This document shows positions 1 through 50,580 of a DNA stretch of 64,000 bases, one piece after another. Position numbers and translations under genes: made by a program. The stretch comes from Lachnospiraceae bacterium (GTDB lineage Bacteria; Bacillota; Clostridia; Lachnospirales; Lachnospiraceae). The stretch is from positions 1-64,000 of the forward strand of contig SVDZ01000002.1 in assembly GCA_015057625.1 (NCBI GenBank). Direction: 5' to 3'. Each line of letters begins with the position of its first letter. Positions within the stretch are counted from its first letter, which is position 1. The notes beneath the pieces are model-generated. The model saw only the letters and a list, made by a program, of their open reading frames with translations, was not told where the DNA came from and made no database searches.

Positions 1-140
1 GAAAATGCGGGCGCTGTTTGAGTCCGAAGGACGAGTTGCGCAGGAGCATTTTCTAATAAGCGAATGCGAGGAGTAGATAATATAGTGTGTCACAGGGATT
101 GTTACATTTATGCTTTGCTCATCTGAAAACTATTGCTCAC
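1..140. repeat. Partial structured intergenic repeat, cut by window edge
   Basis: This stretch has no plausible gene. Positions about 16-75 resemble 28472-28540 in the same orientation, sharing the words TTTGAG, CCGAAGGA, CGAGTT, and AATAAGCGAATGCGAGGA. That makes it the right part of the same element type found complete before copA, with its left part lying beyond the window. It is followed directly by the near-palindromic junction at 141-166 and then by another foldback unit. Nothing suggests translation. Confidence 0.6.
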
Positions 141-490
141 ATTTCATATACTATACTTTATGAAACGTGAATTACAGTTGCTTTCGGGAATACGTAAAGA
201 GCAATTGTATGAATGGATTTCGAAAAACGATTGAGACAAACTTAGAAGGATTTCGATAAAAGATGGATGATTCGATGTCAAATTTCGAGGATTACAAGTC
301 CTCGAAATTTAGTGCAAGTGACAGAGTTTTCATCAAGAAAACTCTGGAGATTTGCACGGGCGAGAATCATACTTCTTTTGAGAAATAATCCTTCAAGTTA
401 TGTCGAACTGTTTTGAGAAAACATTTATATAATTGTGACCTAGTATTCTGAAAGCAACGTATGCCCGTTTCAAAATGTATACATTAAAAC
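141..490. repeat. Foldback element C1 with flanking palindromic junctions
   Basis: Near-palindromic junctions (141-166 and 467-490, centre TATA, ends close to TTTCA...TGAAAC) enclose about 300 bp that fold into one long imperfect hairpin. The outer arms pair around 174-189 with 446-460. The tip is forked: a perfect 12-bp stem at 280-291/299-310 and a second stem at about 322-347. Read as reverse complement, the unit matches 28054-28353 almost base for base (I estimate above 90 percent identity by eye). The right junction ends only a few bases before the ribosome binding site of the dehydrogenase gene, so that gene's promoter must lie in or beyond the element. Confidence 0.75.
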
Positions 491-508
491 CGAGAAAGGA
501 GTGGCTAT

Positions 509-6840: not shown

Positions 6841-6852
6841 GAATGCATATTT

Positions 6853-7022
6853 TAATAGTAGAGGTTGCACTGATTATCAGTAATATATCGGATACACCGG
6901 ATGTAGATGAAGATATATGAAAGGAAGAGGTGCCGAAAGTTTGAATGAACCGGTATTTTAAACTTGGGCATATGAAGAAGATTCATATGACTGTCATCTT
7001 TTCCGGATGGAGTGCTACTTTA
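6853..7022 (+). promoter_or_regulatory. Lysine riboswitch (L box) aptamer
   Basis: The leader carries the conserved L-box words in order: TAGAGGTTGC at the 5' side, AGTAAT, GAAAGGAAGAGGTGCCGAAAG in the core, CTTGGGCAT, ACTGTCATCTTTTCCGGATGG, and GGAGTGCTACTT closing the P1 helix. It lies directly before a terminator and dapA, the first enzyme of the lysine branch. Lysine binding is expected to favour the terminator and lower dapA-dapB expression. Ends are approximate. Confidence 0.92.
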
Positions 7023-7042
7023 AGAATCATAAGGATTTTTTT

Positions 7043-26885: not shown

Positions 26886-27210
26886 GTTATGTAAACTGAA
26901 ACTTGCTTTATATACATACCAGATTCAAATTTCTGTTCTGGTATGTATGTTTTTTATTTAAATATAAGTGTTATGTAAACTGTATTGTAGAATTATACCT
27001 ACTAGATTCAATTTTTTGTTCTGGTAGGTATGTTTTTTTGATTGAAAATCTAGTTATGTAAACTCCTGCTTGAATAACTATACCTACCAGATTTGATTTT
27101 TAATTCTGGTAGGTATAGATGCTAGTTTGTTGAAAAATATTGCTGTCGTTATGTTAACTTATTTATGATTTTCATACCTACCAAATTCGATTTCCTGTTC
27201 TGGTATGTAT
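26886..27210. repeat. Four-unit repeat array with conserved box and hairpin
   Basis: This gene-free gap (26821-27392) holds four units starting at 26886, 26970, 27053 and 27148. Each has a box GTTATGTAAACT (the last unit GTTATGTTAACT), 14-18 variable bases, and a 12-bp hairpin with an 11-13 base loop. The hairpins are 26912-26948, 26995-27031, 27080-27116 and 27174-27210. In unit 1 the fifth pair is A-T; in units 2 and 3 it is C-G; unit 4 has one mismatch there. Units 1 and 2 are followed by T runs and could act as terminators for the sufC/sufB-like operon. Function unknown. Confidence 0.8.
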
Positions 27211-27392: not shown

Positions 27393-27701
27393 ATGAGTGA
27401 TAAAAAATGTTGCCATGAAGAAGAAAAAACAAAAGAAAGAAGCGAGAAAGAATATAAGGATTTAATTAACCGGCTTAGCAGGATAGAAGGACAGGTCAGA
27501 GGTGTTAAAAATATGATTGAGAGTGATGCATACTGTACTGATATTTTAGTTCAGGTTTCAGCAGTTACGGCAGCACTGAATAGCTTTAATAAAGTCTTGT
27601 TATCTAATCATATAAAAACCTGTGTTGCAGATAATATTAAAAATGGGAATGATGAAGTGGTTGATGAACTGGTGAATGTATTGGCAAAATTAATGAGATG
27701 A
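27393..27701 (+). CDS. csoR: Copper-sensing transcriptional repressor CsoR
   Basis: A 102-residue all-helical DUF156-family repressor. The copper ligand set Cys48 (AYCTDIL), His73 (SNHIKTC) and Cys77 is complete, which fits Cu(I) sensing rather than the nickel (RcnR) or persulfide (CstR) branches. The family signature RLSRIEGQVRGVKNMI is present. The N-terminus has an extra Cys6-Cys7-His8 that might also bind metal. GTGAGGT at 27378-27384 precedes ATG. It is preceded by a perfect CsoR-type operator and followed, five bases after the stop, by a 0.9-kb block of foldback repeats and then copA. Confidence 0.94.
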   Translation: MSDKKCCHEEEKTKERSEKEYKDLINRLSRIEGQVRGVKNMIESDAYCTDILVQVSAVTAALNSFNKVLLSNHIKTCVADNIKNGNDEVVDELVNVLAKLMR

Positions 27702-27706
27702 TAGAA

Positions 27707-28053
27707 TTTTCAAAAAGTATAGTTTTTGAAACAATCCTCTGCTTAAGATTCAGTCTTTCACCGTATACCTGCAAATGTTTTTTCTGAAACGCAAACAAGC
27801 ACTAAGGTTATATCTTCAAAAGAATATTAATTCCTCGCCCGCATACATACGCGGGTTCTCTTGATGACAACCCGCGTCGAATGCTAAATTTCGAGGACTT
27901 GTAATCCTCGAAATTTGACTCGGATTAATCTTCTTTTATCAGATAACCTTAAAGTACTTGTTTCAATGTTATCAGAAAAAACATTTGCAGGTACACGGTA
28001 TCAATCCTGAATCTTGCGCAGATATACGTTTCATAAAGTATAGTTTTTGAAAC
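27707..28053. repeat. Foldback element C2 between junction palindromes
   Basis: Junctions at 27707-27732 and 28028-28053 (each ending TGAAAC with a TATA centre) enclose 295 bp. Its left arm (about 27735-27832) is complementary to its right arm (about 27920-28024), for example around CCTGCAAATGTTTTTTCTGA. The tip has two hairpins: 27849-27857/27869-27877, and the 12-bp stem 27886-27897/27905-27916. The arm sequences differ from those of C1 and C3, but the architecture, the second tip hairpin and the junctions are the same. No plausible coding sequence. Confidence 0.75.
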
Positions 28054-28379
28054 ATAGATACGTTGCTTTCAGAATACTAAATCGCAATTATATAAATGTT
28101 TTCTCGAAACAGTTCGACATAACTTGAAGGATTATTTCTCAAAAGAAGTATGATTCTTGCCCGTGCAAATCGCCAGAGTTTTCTTGATGAAAACTCTGGC
28201 ACTTGCACTAAATTTCGAGGACCTGTAATCCTCGAAATTTGACAGCAAATCATCCTTCTTTTATCGAAATCCTTCGAAGTTTGTCTCAATCGTTTTTCGA
28301 AATCCATTCACATAATTGTTCTTTACGTATTCCCGAAAGCAACTGTAATTCACGTTTCAAAAAGTATAGTTTATGAAAC
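28028..28379. repeat. Foldback element C3, inverted copy of C1
   Basis: Junctions at 28028-28053 and 28354-28379 enclose 300 bp. The outer stem pairs GTTGCTTTC near 28062 with GAAAGCAAC near 28334 and continues imperfectly inward for roughly 100 bp per arm. The forked tip has stems 28173-28183/28189-28199 and 28210-28221/28229-28240. The element is close to the reverse complement of 167-466 along its full length. An apparent minus-strand reading frame at 28077-28307 is a by-product. Confidence 0.8.
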
Positions 28380-28619
28380 ACAGCATCGTCACGGGAAAGG
28401 CTATGCAATAATGAGATGAGACGATAGCGAGGCTTTCGTTATGACGAGCATTCTAGCTTCGAACGCGAAAGCATGTGTTTGAGCTCCGAAGGAGCGAGTT
28501 ATGCGAAGCGTTCGATAATAAGCGAATGCGAGGAATAGAAAACGATGCGTGTCTCAGATTATTATTGTATAGCCTTTCAGGGACGATGCGTCTGTTTTAA
28601 AAAGTATTCATTTTGAAAA
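28354..28619. repeat. Foldback element C4 before copA
   Basis: Junctions at 28354-28379 and 28594-28619 (the latter degraded) enclose 214 bp. The arms at about 28380-28422 and 28549-28593 pair (ATCGTC, GAAAGGCTAT and CAATAAT words with their complements). The tip differs from C1-C3 and is the GC-richer TTTGAG...CCGAAGGAG...AATAAGCGAATGCGAGGA segment also seen at 16-75. The right junction ends 18 bp before the copA start codon, so it overlaps the expected copA leader. Confidence 0.7.
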
Positions 28620-28637: not shown

Positions 28638-31364
28638 ATGGATAGATATGAAGTTACAGGTATGAGCTGTGCAGCGTGCCAGGCGAGAGTGGAAAAGGCA
28701 GTTTCCAAACTTGAAGGTGTCGACAGTGTGTCGGTTAATCTTCTCACAAACTCTATGCAGGTTGAGGGCTGCGCAAACGAAAAAGAGGTAATAGATGCAG
28801 TTACAAAAGCCGGATATGGTGCAAGAAAAACAGGTGGCACATCAAAAACAGGTGGCACATCAAAAACCGGAGCTACATCAAGCGCAGGAGCTACATCAAA
28901 TCAAGAAATTGAAAGCGTAGATGAGACTGCTTTTGCAGATAAAGAGACGCCCAAAATGATAAAGAGGCTTGTATTTTCTGTCATTTTTCTGATACCGCTA
29001 ATGTATATTTCTATGGGACATATGATGTTTGGGTGGAAACTCCCATCTTTTTTTGATGGAAACACGGTGGGAGTTGTTATTGTTGAAATGCTTCTTGCCA
29101 TTATTGTTATGGTGATAAATCAGAAGTTTTTTATAAGTGGGACTTTGAGCCTTTTGCATGGTGGACCTAATATGGACACTTTAGTTGCTATGGGATCCGG
29201 AGTTTCTTTTCTATATAGTTTTGTAGCTTTACTTTTTATGAGTAAAGCGCAGAGTGTCAATAATGAGGCACTGGTTTTGGAATATATGCATGATTTGTAT
29301 TTTGAGTCTGCGGCTATGATTGTGACTCTGATTACGGTGGGAAAAACCCTTGAAGCTTACTCAAAGGGAAAAACTACAAATGCGCTTAAGTCATTGATGA
29401 AACTTAAACCCAAGACAGCAATAAAGATTATAAAAAACGGTGATGGAAGCGTTGAGGAGAGAGAAGTCTTAATCGAAGAAATAAATGTCGGAGATATTTT
29501 TGCAGTGAAGCCTGGGGCTTCTGTTCCTGTGGATGGAATTGTGATAGATGGGTATAGTAGTGTGGATGAATCAGCTATTACAGGTGAGAGTATTCCCGTT
29601 GATAAGGTTCCGGGAAATACAGTTACATCTGCAACCACGAATACTCAGGGTTATTTGAAGTGCGAGGCTACAAGGGTCGGAGATGACACAACCCTTGCCC
29701 AGATTATTCAACTGGTCAGTGATGCGGCTGCGGGGAAAGCTCCGATTGCCGCTATTGCAGACAAAGTTTCAGGAGTGTTTGTTCCTACTGTTGTTGGTAT
29801 TGCAGCGTTTACATTTATTGCCTGGATTATAGCAGGCCAAAGTATATCTTTTGCCATTGCCAGGGGTATTTCAGTTCTTGTAATCAGCTGTCCTTGCGCA
29901 TTGGGACTTGCAACCCCTGTTGCTATTATGGTTGGAAGCGGTGTTGGTGCAAAGAATGGAATATTGTTTAAAAATGCAATTGCCCTTGAGAATGCGGGAA
30001 AGATTTCAAGTCTGGCACTTGACAAGACAGGAACTATTACTGAGGGAAAACCTTTTGTTACAGATGTGATTCTTAAGAATGATATAGATGAAAATGAATT
30101 GTTAACAATTGTGTACAGCTTAGAGAGTAAAAGTGAGCATCCTATTGCGAAGGCCATAGTTGATTATTGTAATGAAAATAATATAAAGAAAAAAGAGTGT
30201 AAGGATTTTACTTCTTACACAGGAAATGGTATTTCAGGAGTAGTGGACAGACAATATTACTGTGGAAATATCAATTTTATAGCATCAAAAATTAATGCAA
30301 TTTCAAGTCGGGGTGAGGATACTGATTTGGCGGAAACTATAGGTATGTTGTCTGAGGAAGAAATAGGTCTTGCAAGAGAGGGCAAAACGACGGTTTTTGT
30401 GTCAGATTCCAATAAAATTCTTGGAGTGATTGCTGTTGCGGATATTTTAAAAAAAGATGCAAAAGATGCAATAAATGATTTAAAAAATATGGGCATTAAT
30501 GTTATAATGTTAACAGGAGATAATGAGCAGACAGCACGGGCTATCGGAGCTAAAGCGGGAGTTTCCAGTGTGGCGGCTGAACTGTTACCGGACGGAAAAG
30601 AAAAGATAATAGGAAGAGAGATGGAAAGAGGCGTAATCACAGCTATGGTTGGAGATGGAATTAATGATGCGCCGGCACTTACAAGAGCAGATATTGGCAT
30701 TGCAATCGGTGCGGGAACGGATGTTGCAATTGATGCGGCAGATATAGTTCTTATGAAGAGCAAAATAGAAGATGTGCCTGCGGCCATAAGGCTTAGCAAA
30801 AAAGTAATTAACAATATTCATCAAAACTTGTTTTGGGCATTTTTCTATAACATAATCGGAATTCCAATTGCAGCGGGAGTGCTGTATCCGACTTTAGGAA
30901 TAAAACTGAATCCAATGATTGGAGCACTTGCCATGAGCTTGTCCAGTGTATGTGTAGTTACAAATGCTCTGAGGCTAAACGGGGTGGATATTTACGGAAA
31001 GAAAAAATTATCCCGGGATAGCGAATCAAAATTAACAAACGATAGTAAATCAGATATAGCAAATGATAATAAAAACAATGATTATAAAAACAATGATTTT
31101 AAAAACAATGATTTTAAAAATAACGAAATAGAAATAAATATGGAGGAATTATCAATGAAGAAGACAATGAAAATTACAGGAATGATGTGTGGACACTGCG
31201 AGGCAGCTGTTAAGAAAGCGCTTGAGGAATTGCCACAGGTTAAGGAAGCAGTTGTGAGTCATAAAGAGGGTACAGCTGTTGTAGAACTTGAAGCAGCGAT
31301 TTCTGATGATGAACTGAAAAAGGCTGTAGAGGAAAAAGACTATACAGTGGATTCAATCGAATAA
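28638..31364 (+). CDS. copA: Copper-exporting P1B ATPase fused to a C-terminal CopZ-like domain
   Basis: A Cu(I)-exporting P1B-type ATPase in the membrane, 908 residues. It starts with a heavy-metal-associated domain with Cys11-Ala-Ala-Cys14. A linker made of 18-bp repeats (GTSKTGG, residues about 64-88) leads to eight expected membrane helices with the CPC ion motif at 418-420. The phosphorylation Asp462 is in DKTGT, and the hinge GDGIND follows. After the last helices come an Asn/Lys/Asp-rich linker of 15-bp repeats and a second metal-binding domain, Cys851-Gly-His-Cys854, close to a free CopZ chaperone. AATAGGAG precedes ATG. It lies downstream of csoR, but no second CsoR operator is visible near it. 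Confidence 0.95.
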   Translation: MDRYEVTGMSCAACQARVEKAVSKLEGVDSVSVNLLTNSMQVEGCANEKEVIDAVTKAGYGARKTGGTSKTGGTSKTGATSSAGATSNQEIESVDETAFADKETPKMIKRLVFSVIFLIPLMYISMGHMMFGWKLPSFFDGNTVGVVIVEMLLAIIVMVINQKFFISGTLSLLHGGPNMDTLVAMGSGVSFLYSFVALLFMSKAQSVNNEALVLEYMHDLYFESAAMIVTLITVGKTLEAYSKGKTTNALKSLMKLKPKTAIKIIKNGDGSVEEREVLIEEINVGDIFAVKPGASVPVDGIVIDGYSSVDESAITGESIPVDKVPGNTVTSATTNTQGYLKCEATRVGDDTTLAQIIQLVSDAAAGKAPIAAIADKVSGVFVPTVVGIAAFTFIAWIIAGQSISFAIARGISVLVISCPCALGLATPVAIMVGSGVGAKNGILFKNAIALENAGKISSLALDKTGTITEGKPFVTDVILKNDIDENELLTIVYSLESKSEHPIAKAIVDYCNENNIKKKECKDFTSYTGNGISGVVDRQYYCGNINFIASKINAISSRGEDTDLAETIGMLSEEEIGLAREGKTTVFVSDSNKILGVIAVADILKKDAKDAINDLKNMGINVIMLTGDNEQTARAIGAKAGVSSVAAELLPDGKEKIIGREMERGVITAMVGDGINDAPALTRADIGIAIGAGTDVAIDAADIVLMKSKIEDVPAAIRLSKKVINNIHQNLFWAFFYNIIGIPIAAGVLYPTLGIKLNPMIGALAMSLSSVCVVTNALRLNGVDIYGKKKLSRDSESKLTNDSKSDIANDNKNNDYKNNDFKNNDFKNNEIEINMEELSMKKTMKITGMMCGHCEAAVKKALEELPQVKEAVVSHKEGTAVVELEAAISDDELKKAVEEKDYTVDSIE
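31155..31364 (+). CDS. copZ: Possible independently translated CopZ-like copper chaperone
   Basis: Inside the 3' end of copA, in the same frame, GGAGG at 31142-31146 stands eight bases before ATG 31155. From there a 69-residue protein MKKTMKITGMMCGHC... would be made, with the length and CxxC motif of a complete CopZ chaperone that carries Cu(I) in the cytoplasm. The DNA just before it consists of four 15-bp tandem units (31071-31130) that look like a former spacer now read through. I infer that copA and copZ were separate neighbours that fused, with the chaperone start retained. Both products may be made. Translation from this site is not proven by sequence. Confidence 0.5.
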   Translation: MKKTMKITGMMCGHCEAAVKKALEELPQVKEAVVSHKEGTAVVELEAAISDDELKKAVEEKDYTVDSIE

Positions 31365-49317: not shown

Positions 49318-50199
49318 ATGGAAAAGATTAAAATTGTCACTGATTCAGCAAGTGATATATTGGATAAATATGTAAAAGAATATGACATTGATGTAATCCC
49401 TTTTAAGATTGTTGTGGGAGATAAATCTTATGTCAGCAATGTTGATTTTGATAACGAAGAATTTTACAAAATATTAGATTCTTACGATGGTATTCCTGCA
49501 ACATCTCAGATTACTCCATTTGAGTTTGAAGAGTATTATAATAAGATGTTTGAAGAAGGATATACTGATCTTGTGTTAGTATTAATTAATTCACAAGGAT
49601 CTGCCACATATAATAATTCGATTATGGCGAAGGATAGTTTCTTTGAGGAACATCCTGAGGCAGAAGGTAAAATCAATATTCATACATTTGATGGAAAGTC
49701 ATATAACTGCGGATATGGATGGGCTGTTATTGAAGCGGCTAAAATGGTAAAAGAAGGAAGCAGTGTTGATGATGTTCTTAAATCAATAGAGGAACAGCTT
49801 ACAAAAACTTGTATTTATTTTGGCATGTATTCATTGACGTACGCAGCTAAGTCAGGTAGAATACCTAGTGCAGCAGCATTTGTTGGAGATGCAATTGGAC
49901 TTAAGCCTGTTATGAAAATATGGGATCATGAGATTACCACTGCGGGAAAAGTTCGTGGTGAGAAGAAATTGATGAGCAGTATAGTTTCCATGGCGATTGA
50001 TGAGATGGAAGAAGGTTCTCCATACGCAGTTATTTATGGAAATGACAAAAGTGTTGCTGATGAATTAGCTGAAAGACTCACAAAAGAGCTTGGTTATCCA
50101 CCTCTTTATGGGTTTCAGATAGGTGCTGCAGTTGCAATTAATGCAGGACCAAAGGTTGTTGGAGTTGGTTTCAACTCTAAGAACAGAACCTCTGATTAA
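49318..50199 (+). CDS. DegV family fatty-acid-binding protein
   Basis: A cytosolic DegV/EDD-fold protein, 293 residues, normal length. It starts with the signature KIKIVTDSASDI, has PATSQITPFEF around residue 60 and the second-domain motif AAKSGRIP near 178. Family members bind fatty acids and, as FakB, present them to the kinase FakA for phosphorylation; no FakA is in the window, so only binding is claimed. A hairpin at 49284-49304 lies just ahead of the GAGAGG ribosome binding site. Its stop codon lies only three bases before the mature 5' end of ssrA. Confidence 0.92.
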   Translation: MEKIKIVTDSASDILDKYVKEYDIDVIPFKIVVGDKSYVSNVDFDNEEFYKILDSYDGIPATSQITPFEFEEYYNKMFEEGYTDLVLVLINSQGSATYNNSIMAKDSFFEEHPEAEGKINIHTFDGKSYNCGYGWAVIEAAKMVKEGSSVDDVLKSIEEQLTKTCIYFGMYSLTYAAKSGRIPSAAAFVGDAIGLKPVMKIWDHEITTAGKVRGEKKLMSSIVSMAIDEMEEGSPYAVIYGNDKSVADELAERLTKELGYPPLYGFQIGAAVAINAGPKVVGVGFNSKNRTSD

Positions 50200-50202
50200 T
50201 TA

Positions 50203-50541
50203 GGGGTAGTAAAGGTTTCGACAGGGGCTATGCAGCTGGAGAAGCGAGTCGTATGCAATGCGTTAAATGGCAAACTAATAATAAACGCTGAAGAAAATTT
50301 AGCATACGCTGCCTAATTGCGGCAGCAGTCTGACCTAGTGCACCTACACATTAGGACCCAGGCTTCGACTATGTAGGAAACGACGTTAGCAAAGCTTTGA
50401 GCTATCGGGCGTATTATGAAGCTACTGAAACTGCAAGGTTGTCTGTTACCGTGCGGCAGAGGGAATGTCAATTAACAGACTACACTCGTAGAAGTACAGG
50501 GAATTGGTTTTTGGACACGGGTTCGACTCCCGTCTACTCCA
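50203..50541 (+). ncRNA. ssrA: Transfer-messenger RNA
   Basis: One-piece tmRNA. The 5' GGGGTAGTAAAGGTTTCGACAGGGG start pairs with CTACTCC at 50534-50540, closing the tRNA-like acceptor stem (one G-U). The T arm has GGTTCGACTCC. The tag reading frame ends GCT GAA GAA AAT TTA GCA TAC GCT GCC TAA (50287-50316), giving AEENLAYAA as the likely encoded tag with the usual C-terminal degradation signal. The resume codon GCT is inferred. CCA is not encoded after discriminator A. It starts three bases after the DegV stop, so it is probably processed out of a longer transcript. Confidence 0.96.
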
Positions 50542-50542
50542 T

Positions 50543-50580
50543 CTCGGAAGCACCGAAAATGAAGGGCTTCCGAGTTTTTT
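50543..50580 (+). terminator. ssrA: ssrA terminator
   Basis: CTCGGAAGC at 50543-50551 pairs perfectly with GCTTCCGAG at 50566-50574, followed by TTTTTTTATTT. Confidence 0.93.

Follow-up and report, generated by a model that had tools for sequence, protein, structure and literature searches.

Why are a copper repressor gene and the gene of its pump separated by long hairpins, and what are these hairpins? In the genome of a Lachnospiraceae bacterium (here G000), csoR (27393-27701, PF02583) and copA (28638-31364, PF00122 and PF00403) lie 936 bp apart, and the interval is occupied by foldback units that raise the question of how they reached this position and at what level their shape is maintained. 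The window, i.e. the whole stretch of DNA that was analysed (64,000 nucleotides), was examined together with the rest of this genome, two other genomes of the same genus and further genomes of the family and order.

Foldback units and their boundary palindromes

A preliminary description of this DNA had recognised three foldback units standing head to tail from csoR to copA (C2, C3 and C4) and a further one and a half units at 1-490, both of which were borne out, the latter with an extent of 1-492 (Table 1). The units themselves were thus correctly seen, but the shared 26-bp palindromes that define them had been overlooked: every unit is bounded by the palindrome GTTTCAWAANSTATASNTTWTGAAAC, and adjoining units have one copy in common. 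Measured from centre to centre of these palindromes, the lengths of 295-300 bp (C1-C3) and 214 bp (C4) given previously are corrected to 321 bp for C2, 326 bp for C1 and C3, and 240 bp for C4. C2 belongs to subfamily A, C1 and C3 to B, C4 to C, and the half unit at 1-153 to D, whose whole module measures 247 bp. Modules of the different types have unlike cores and the same ends, and the likeness between A and B amounts to only about 74%, in the tip region.

Table 1. Positions of modules, tip hairpins and boundary palindromes in the window.
Feature	Position	Strand	Remark
26-bp boundary palindrome, site 1, TTTTCAAAAAGTATAGTTTTTGAAAC	27707-27732		directly after csoR stop
Module A (C2)	27720-28040	+	321 bp foldback, forked tip
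Tip hairpin 1 of module A	27849-27877	+	loop with invariant TGAT
Tip hairpin 2 of module A, AAATTTCGAGGACTTGTAATCCTCGAAATTT	27886-27916		20 copies of palindrome type in genome
26-bp boundary palindrome, site 2	28028-28053		common to modules A and B
Module B (C3)	28041-28366	+	326 bp foldback, forked tip
Tip hairpin 1 of module B, GCCAGAGTTTTC-TTGAT-GAAAACTCTGGC	28172-28200	+	
Tip hairpin 2 of module B	28210-28240		
26-bp boundary palindrome, site 3	28354-28379		common to modules B and C
Module C (C4)	28367-28606	-	240 bp foldback, different tip
26-bp boundary palindrome, site 4	28594-28619		partly decayed, 18 bp upstream of copA start
D-type module, partial	1-153	-	whole = 247 bp, cut by contig start
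26-bp boundary palindrome between D and B	141-166		
Module B (C1)	154-479	-	inverted relative to C3
26-bp boundary palindrome	467-492		outer half eroded

A comparison of folding energy with shuffled sequence, which the preliminary description had proposed as a check, placed all four whole units about 10 to 13.5 standard deviations beyond the shuffles (z = -13.5 for C2, -12.2 for C3, -9.9 for C4 and -11.0 for C1), none of which was as stable. The forked tip previously drawn for C1-C3, a three-way junction bearing two hairpins, was recovered in all three, as was the different tip of C4, which is mostly linear. In agreement with the earlier statement that no reading frame fits, the longest internal ORF spans 76 aa and is antisense. 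In the predicted folds of modules A and B, the two inner half-sites pair at the base of the forked hairpin.

Other structured stretches were encountered in the same window. Upstream of csoR (26886-27210) stand four tandem palindromes of the form ATACCTACCAGATT..AATTCTGGTAGGTAT, each after (G)TTATGT(A/T)AACT, and similar tandem palindromes are present in composite modules of G000 and in the centre of an element from another genus (G611, see below). A lysine riboswitch (Rfam) lies at 6851-7025, and at 50130-50544 the standard and the permuted Rfam tmRNA models match overlapping stretches, the standard model far more strongly.

Copies across the genome and at orthologous loci

In G000, for which all counts rest on searches and extracted stretches, the 26-mer was found at 68 sites with up to two mismatches and at 87 with up to three, while a reversed-pattern control gave 0 sites against the 68, and a chance origin was consequently rejected. 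The consensus of 73 sites is GTTTCA(A/T)AANGTATA(G/C)NTT(A/T)TGAAAC, both arms being the same inverted sequence, with no dif-like asymmetry. The stretches between sites include 8 copies of type A, 11 of B, 8 of C and 6 of D, as well as composite types with tandem small palindromes. Module B gave 74 BLAST matches in the genome, and the tip palindrome AAATTTCGAGGAC(C/T)TGTAATCCTCGAAATTT recurs in the 20 copies listed in Table 1. Interiors are nearly identical within a type (medians of 96-99.5%; 99.0% for A and 99.1% for C), and copies about 99% identical sit at unrelated loci, in both orientations and with changes in module order. Nearly every copy lies between two 26-mers, and a palindrome with a module on one side only still has its outer half.

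Three inter-site intervals, two of about 2.96 kb and one of 2.3 kb, were read for a transposase as candidates for an autonomous element and held only ordinary or housekeeping genes; phage, plasmid and viral collections gave no match to the elements. A different high-copy repeat, TGCGAAATGCGCGTCAGTCATGAGATAACTTACTTTGTAAGATATCTCGTT, was noticed in the left flank of position 97226 of contig C6 of G000 (L082), with more than 25 matches at many places in the two same-genus genomes.

These two genomes, the rumen MAGs Tb.RUG.215 (G202) and RUI379 (G203), constitute with G000 the same-genus comparison and contain 43 and 35 sites of the 26-mer, respectively, many of which are solo palindromes without a module, often located directly after a stop codon or terminator. 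At one orthologous locus, a solo palindrome in G202 corresponds to H and B-like modules or ends in G203 and to D in G000. At further loci, modules A and B of G000 are each matched by a solo palindrome in G203, at another B in G000 is matched by H in G203, and the locus L158/L173 carries a module in G202 but a solo palindrome in G203. In G203 only 63 bp, and in G202 about 147 bp, separate csoR from copA, and these intervals show no more than palindrome-like remnants. At the G000 orthologue of L153 (contig C14) no palindrome is present, and divergence of the spacer obscures any point of insertion.

Because the same loci are empty or differently filled in sister genomes, the modules are mobile, or have at the least been acquired and lost at individual loci. 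Together with the dispersed near-identical copies, these loci lend good support to non-autonomous mobile elements, one of the options that had been listed for the units, and we hold with high confidence that the modules are mobile and gene-less. Palindromes do occur at the same positions in sister genomes, and the orthologue in G287 of a G611 element site carries another foldback directly after the stop codon, as might be seen if the units were fixed sites of chromosome structure (cruciforms or protein-binding palindromes), immobile and subject to concerted evolution in place. Such fixity is highly improbable in view of a locus occupied in one species while empty in another, of copies 99% identical at unrelated loci, and of modules found in both orientations and in changing order. 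Cruciform formation, also among the options listed earlier, is possible as a property of the units, but it does not explain their mobility. At csoR-copA, where such elements have come to lie between the gene of a copper repressor and that of its pump, the 936 bp of hairpins could lower read-through from the former to the latter.

The forked tip in other genera and the level of its conservation

In the alignment of the 11 tips from this genus, double changes affect 18 of 45 pairs. A covariance model built from these 11 tips only (R1) gave 18 matches in six other genera among the 299 Lachnospiraceae genomes searched, and a second model (R2, 29 sequences), run on 392 genomes of the order, added seven more copies from two further genera, every one of them in Lachnospiraceae, so that the forked fold occurs in at least eight other genera and at least nine in all. 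The matches are complete foldback elements with the same fork and a nearly fixed stem length, and they follow one plan: hairpin 1, with a loop (T)TGAT closed by C-G, then CTCAG, then hairpin 2. Their outer arms differ between copies yet pair almost perfectly. In the 29-sequence alignment, which was fitted to the model and whose covariation therefore leans towards it, 44 of 45 pairs show double changes, compensated cells number 371 vs 94 in shuffles, and covariation reaches 0.761 vs 0.184 in shuffles and 0.09-0.16 in slid controls. The loop bases TGAT are invariant (29/29).

Searching this genome and related Lachnospiraceae with the units and a covariance model, as had been suggested in the preliminary description, thus uncovered further copies in both, and the combination of many copies, a conserved fold and varying arms by which a real family was expected to be recognised recurs across genera. 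Since the ends in other genera are different sequences, the 26-mer does not define the family in its entirety. Short bacterial mobile repeats are usually defined by sequence, whereas the forked-hairpin family keeps its shape and a fixed loop with nearly every stem base replaced. R2 offers a search model for a common, unannotated repeat of gut and rumen bacteria; several assemblies of these bacteria are broken at forked-hairpin elements.

Larger and variant arrangements were also observed. A complete element of about 1.15 kb in G611 consists of a foldback at each end with tandem palindromes between, has no ORF over 95 aa, and has the same plan as the B-E-A array of G000 (contig C15, 26101-27271). 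The second foldback of an element in G157 (L285/L313) has the motif GCGAATGCG..GAGG in common with the C/D-type tips of G000, which hints at joint movement of two foldback types. Three forked-tip variants from G202 and G203 (L119, L154 and L182) carry two other hairpins in place of hairpin 2 (e.g. GATAACTCTC..GAGAGTTATC and GTGATTG..CAATCAC), as if tips had been exchanged.

Conservation of a fold by compensatory change, together with the conserved loops and three-way junction, the very stable folds and the many copies directly after stop codons or terminators, is also what units acting as RNA could present (structured 3' UTRs, small RNAs or attenuators), the fold being kept for the sake of the transcript. 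Use of one strand as RNA should lead to more G-U than A-C mismatches; the arms of 25 elements hold 62 of the former and 58 of the latter, an absence of excess that favours neither strand and by which pairing appears to be kept at the DNA level. In the tip alone, 21 G-U and 12 A-C mismatches were counted in an alignment that had been fitted to structure. Rfam searches of the elements, lax thresholds included, returned chance-like matches only, the module type at one locus changes between sister genomes, and relatives are without the insertion between csoR and copA. Function as RNA is on these grounds quite improbable, and the processing or stabilising RNA structures considered previously find no support in Rfam or in the arm mismatches. 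As in the preliminary description, which knew of no named family, neither Rfam nor the literature searched yielded a match.

We consider, from the pattern of substitutions, that the structure is probably conserved at the DNA level. Two DNA-level causes are possible, perhaps together: recognition of the folded strand or cruciform, and template switching between arms, which can homogenise inverted repeats and yield double changes without selection on stems (PMC8794818, PMC7202029). A loop that never varies and an almost constant geometry suggest that template switching is only part of the explanation. If the DNA-level signal is true, some enzyme reads folded DNA, and its discovery would add a mechanism of mobility beside those of integron cassettes and CTXphi.

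Proposed docking palindromes, candidate enzymes and known systems

Inverted arms of 12 bp each round a 2-bp core, the arrangement of the 26-mer in 73 sites, are also the arrangement of serine recombinase crossover sites, and judged by its sequence the 26-mer is a site of the serine recombinase type. In a sample of 200 genomes of the family, nine genomes of other genera contain a 26-mer-like site. In six of the nine, a small serine recombinase gene is located no more than about 350 bp from the site, and three of those six have an inverted pair of sites, 84-95 bp apart, directly after the gene, arranged as in an invertible switch. Sites resembling the 26-mer also accompany two recombinases of G203, and three of the site-linked proteins were confirmed as PF00239. 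The arms GTTTCAAAANGT..ACNTTTTGAAAC are nearly the same beside the PF00239 genes of other Lachnospiraceae genera and of G203, and the core dinucleotide is mostly CT/AG at recombinase-linked sites vs AT in module sites. PF00239 is present in both sister MAGs, and G000 (97.9% complete) gave no match to it; as the acting enzyme, a serine recombinase is a possible though doubtful candidate. Among the stretches inspected, a small serine recombinase gene with two inverted 26-mer-like sites 84-95 bp apart immediately behind it was observed at L189 (2123-2242, contig C22 of G203) and at L066, L068 and L074 (near 1405-1526), a layout that looks like a compact invertible switch in several Lachnospiraceae genera.

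The bases at the module ends bear on how insertion occurs. Even modules that are otherwise nearly identical differ in the S and N bases beside the TATA core, mainly at one end per type, the choice of the 'variable' end having been made after seeing the data; by analogy with CTXphi, this one-sided variability would fit one-strand exchange. An exchange with an 8-bp overlap by a tyrosine recombinase, with a swapped centre, fits the one-sided variation and was rejected at the locus L150/L174/L166, where each outer half is kept, N base included. A short TA or TATA target duplication would look the same as a shared core; a simple constant duplication does not emerge from the inner and outer terminal bases of A copies, which, compared by eye, agree in some copies only. 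At L158/L173, the solo allele is the whole left palindrome of the filled allele and not the product of a centre crossover. The site kept at the L150 locus would fit a central crossover and the L158/L173 pair a slippage deletion, each of these mechanisms, one-strand exchange included, being possible.

Slippage deletion between direct 26-mers would account for solo palindromes if the modules were classical MITEs, mobilised by a DDE transposase (IS30- or IS630-like) that duplicates TA, TATA or 2 bp at targets resembling its own ends, with tandems formed by insertion beside an existing end. An element that targets its own inverted repeats, as IS30 does, leaves abutted ends round a short AT-rich core as well as tandem arrays (PMC9333248); MITE families typically combine unlike cores with common ends; and the L158/L173 locus agrees with slippage deletion. 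Against it, the outer palindrome half is present without a second module, solo palindromes are intact at orthologous sites, no transposase-bearing element lies between such ends in the stretches read, the terminal S and N bases vary between copies, unlike fixed transposon ends, and the site also matches those of serine recombinases. Mobilisation as classical MITEs by a DDE transposase is, in our view, somewhat doubtful.

Our preferred reading, to which we assign a probability of about 45%, is that the units represent a new family of DNA elements with a forked hairpin, and that a recombinase supplied in trans inserts and exchanges them at docking palindromes. Each module is a long inverted repeat, forking in the main types into two small hairpins at its tip, and in this genus each module end is half of the 26-bp palindrome. 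A site-specific recombinase would join the reconstituted 26-bp site of the module to a chromosomal copy, converting palindrome into palindrome-module-palindrome, and modules could be lost by the reverse reaction or by slippage between two direct 26-mers. Recognition may act on the forked hairpin in the form of a folded DNA strand or a cruciform, in the manner of the filamentous phage CTXphi. The step of insertion by site-specific recombination at docking palindromes, taken separately, is evenly poised. Several considerations weigh against the preferred reading. Neither a PF00239 recombinase nor an autonomous partner element was found in G000, the core dinucleotide at recombinase-linked sites is mostly another one, the ends differ in other genera, and template switching can also produce double changes. 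Solo palindromes could moreover be slippage scars and not pristine targets, and the S/N variation beside the TATA core, mainly at one end, is unpredicted by a 2-bp serine exchange. A more specific version, which would amount to a categorically new kind of mobile DNA and in which gene-less and phage-less forked-hairpin cassettes move as folded single strands by one-strand exchange at dispersed palindromic docking sites, with a host or borrowed recombinase and with the tip and TGAT loop as recognition or nicking element, is unlikely.

Several known systems share part of this organisation. Crossover sites of DNA invertases and resolvases have the same 26 bp, two 12-bp inverted arms and 2-bp core, whereas the core of the module sites is AT and not mostly CT/AG, and there are dozens of them per genome. 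As a putative recognition or nicking element, the T-shaped tip with its TGAT loop may resemble parvovirus ends or rolling-circle origins. The dif/pdif modules of Acinetobacter (PMC12907356, PMC13141974) likewise form linear arrays, on chromosomes and plasmids, in which neighbours have a short two-armed site in common. They carry genes, however, and their XerC/XerD sites have unlike arms round a 6-bp centre, whereas the present modules contain no gene, use a near-perfect palindrome as site and consist of one long hairpin; of the features that mark dif/pdif, arrays with common boundary sites were found and unlike XerC/XerD arms were not. In IS30 (PMC9333248), ends are also joined as IR-IR junctions, and insertion occurs beside existing ends and into hot spots, but the modules have no transposase and their terminal bases vary between copies. 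REP sequences (PMC1525189) similarly show intergenic palindromes serving as targets of insertion sequences, while here the palindrome and the module ends are the same sequence. The BOX, RUP and SPRITE repeats of pneumococcus, compared by description only, are in the portion of the source consulted (PMC3049150) also short, dispersed, non-coding and structured, and judged parasitic. That portion describes no conserved forked tip or shared docking palindrome, and reports these repeats as nearly confined to S. pneumoniae and close relatives, in contrast to the at least nine genera with the forked fold. Finally, attP(+) of CTXphi (PMC3089051) is likewise a forked hairpin, made of folded single-stranded DNA, and pairing of its two inverted sites creates the site that recombines with a chromosomal one; the modules described here carry no phage genes, would integrate as single strands by inference only, and have as host sites dozens of palindromes in place of a single dif.
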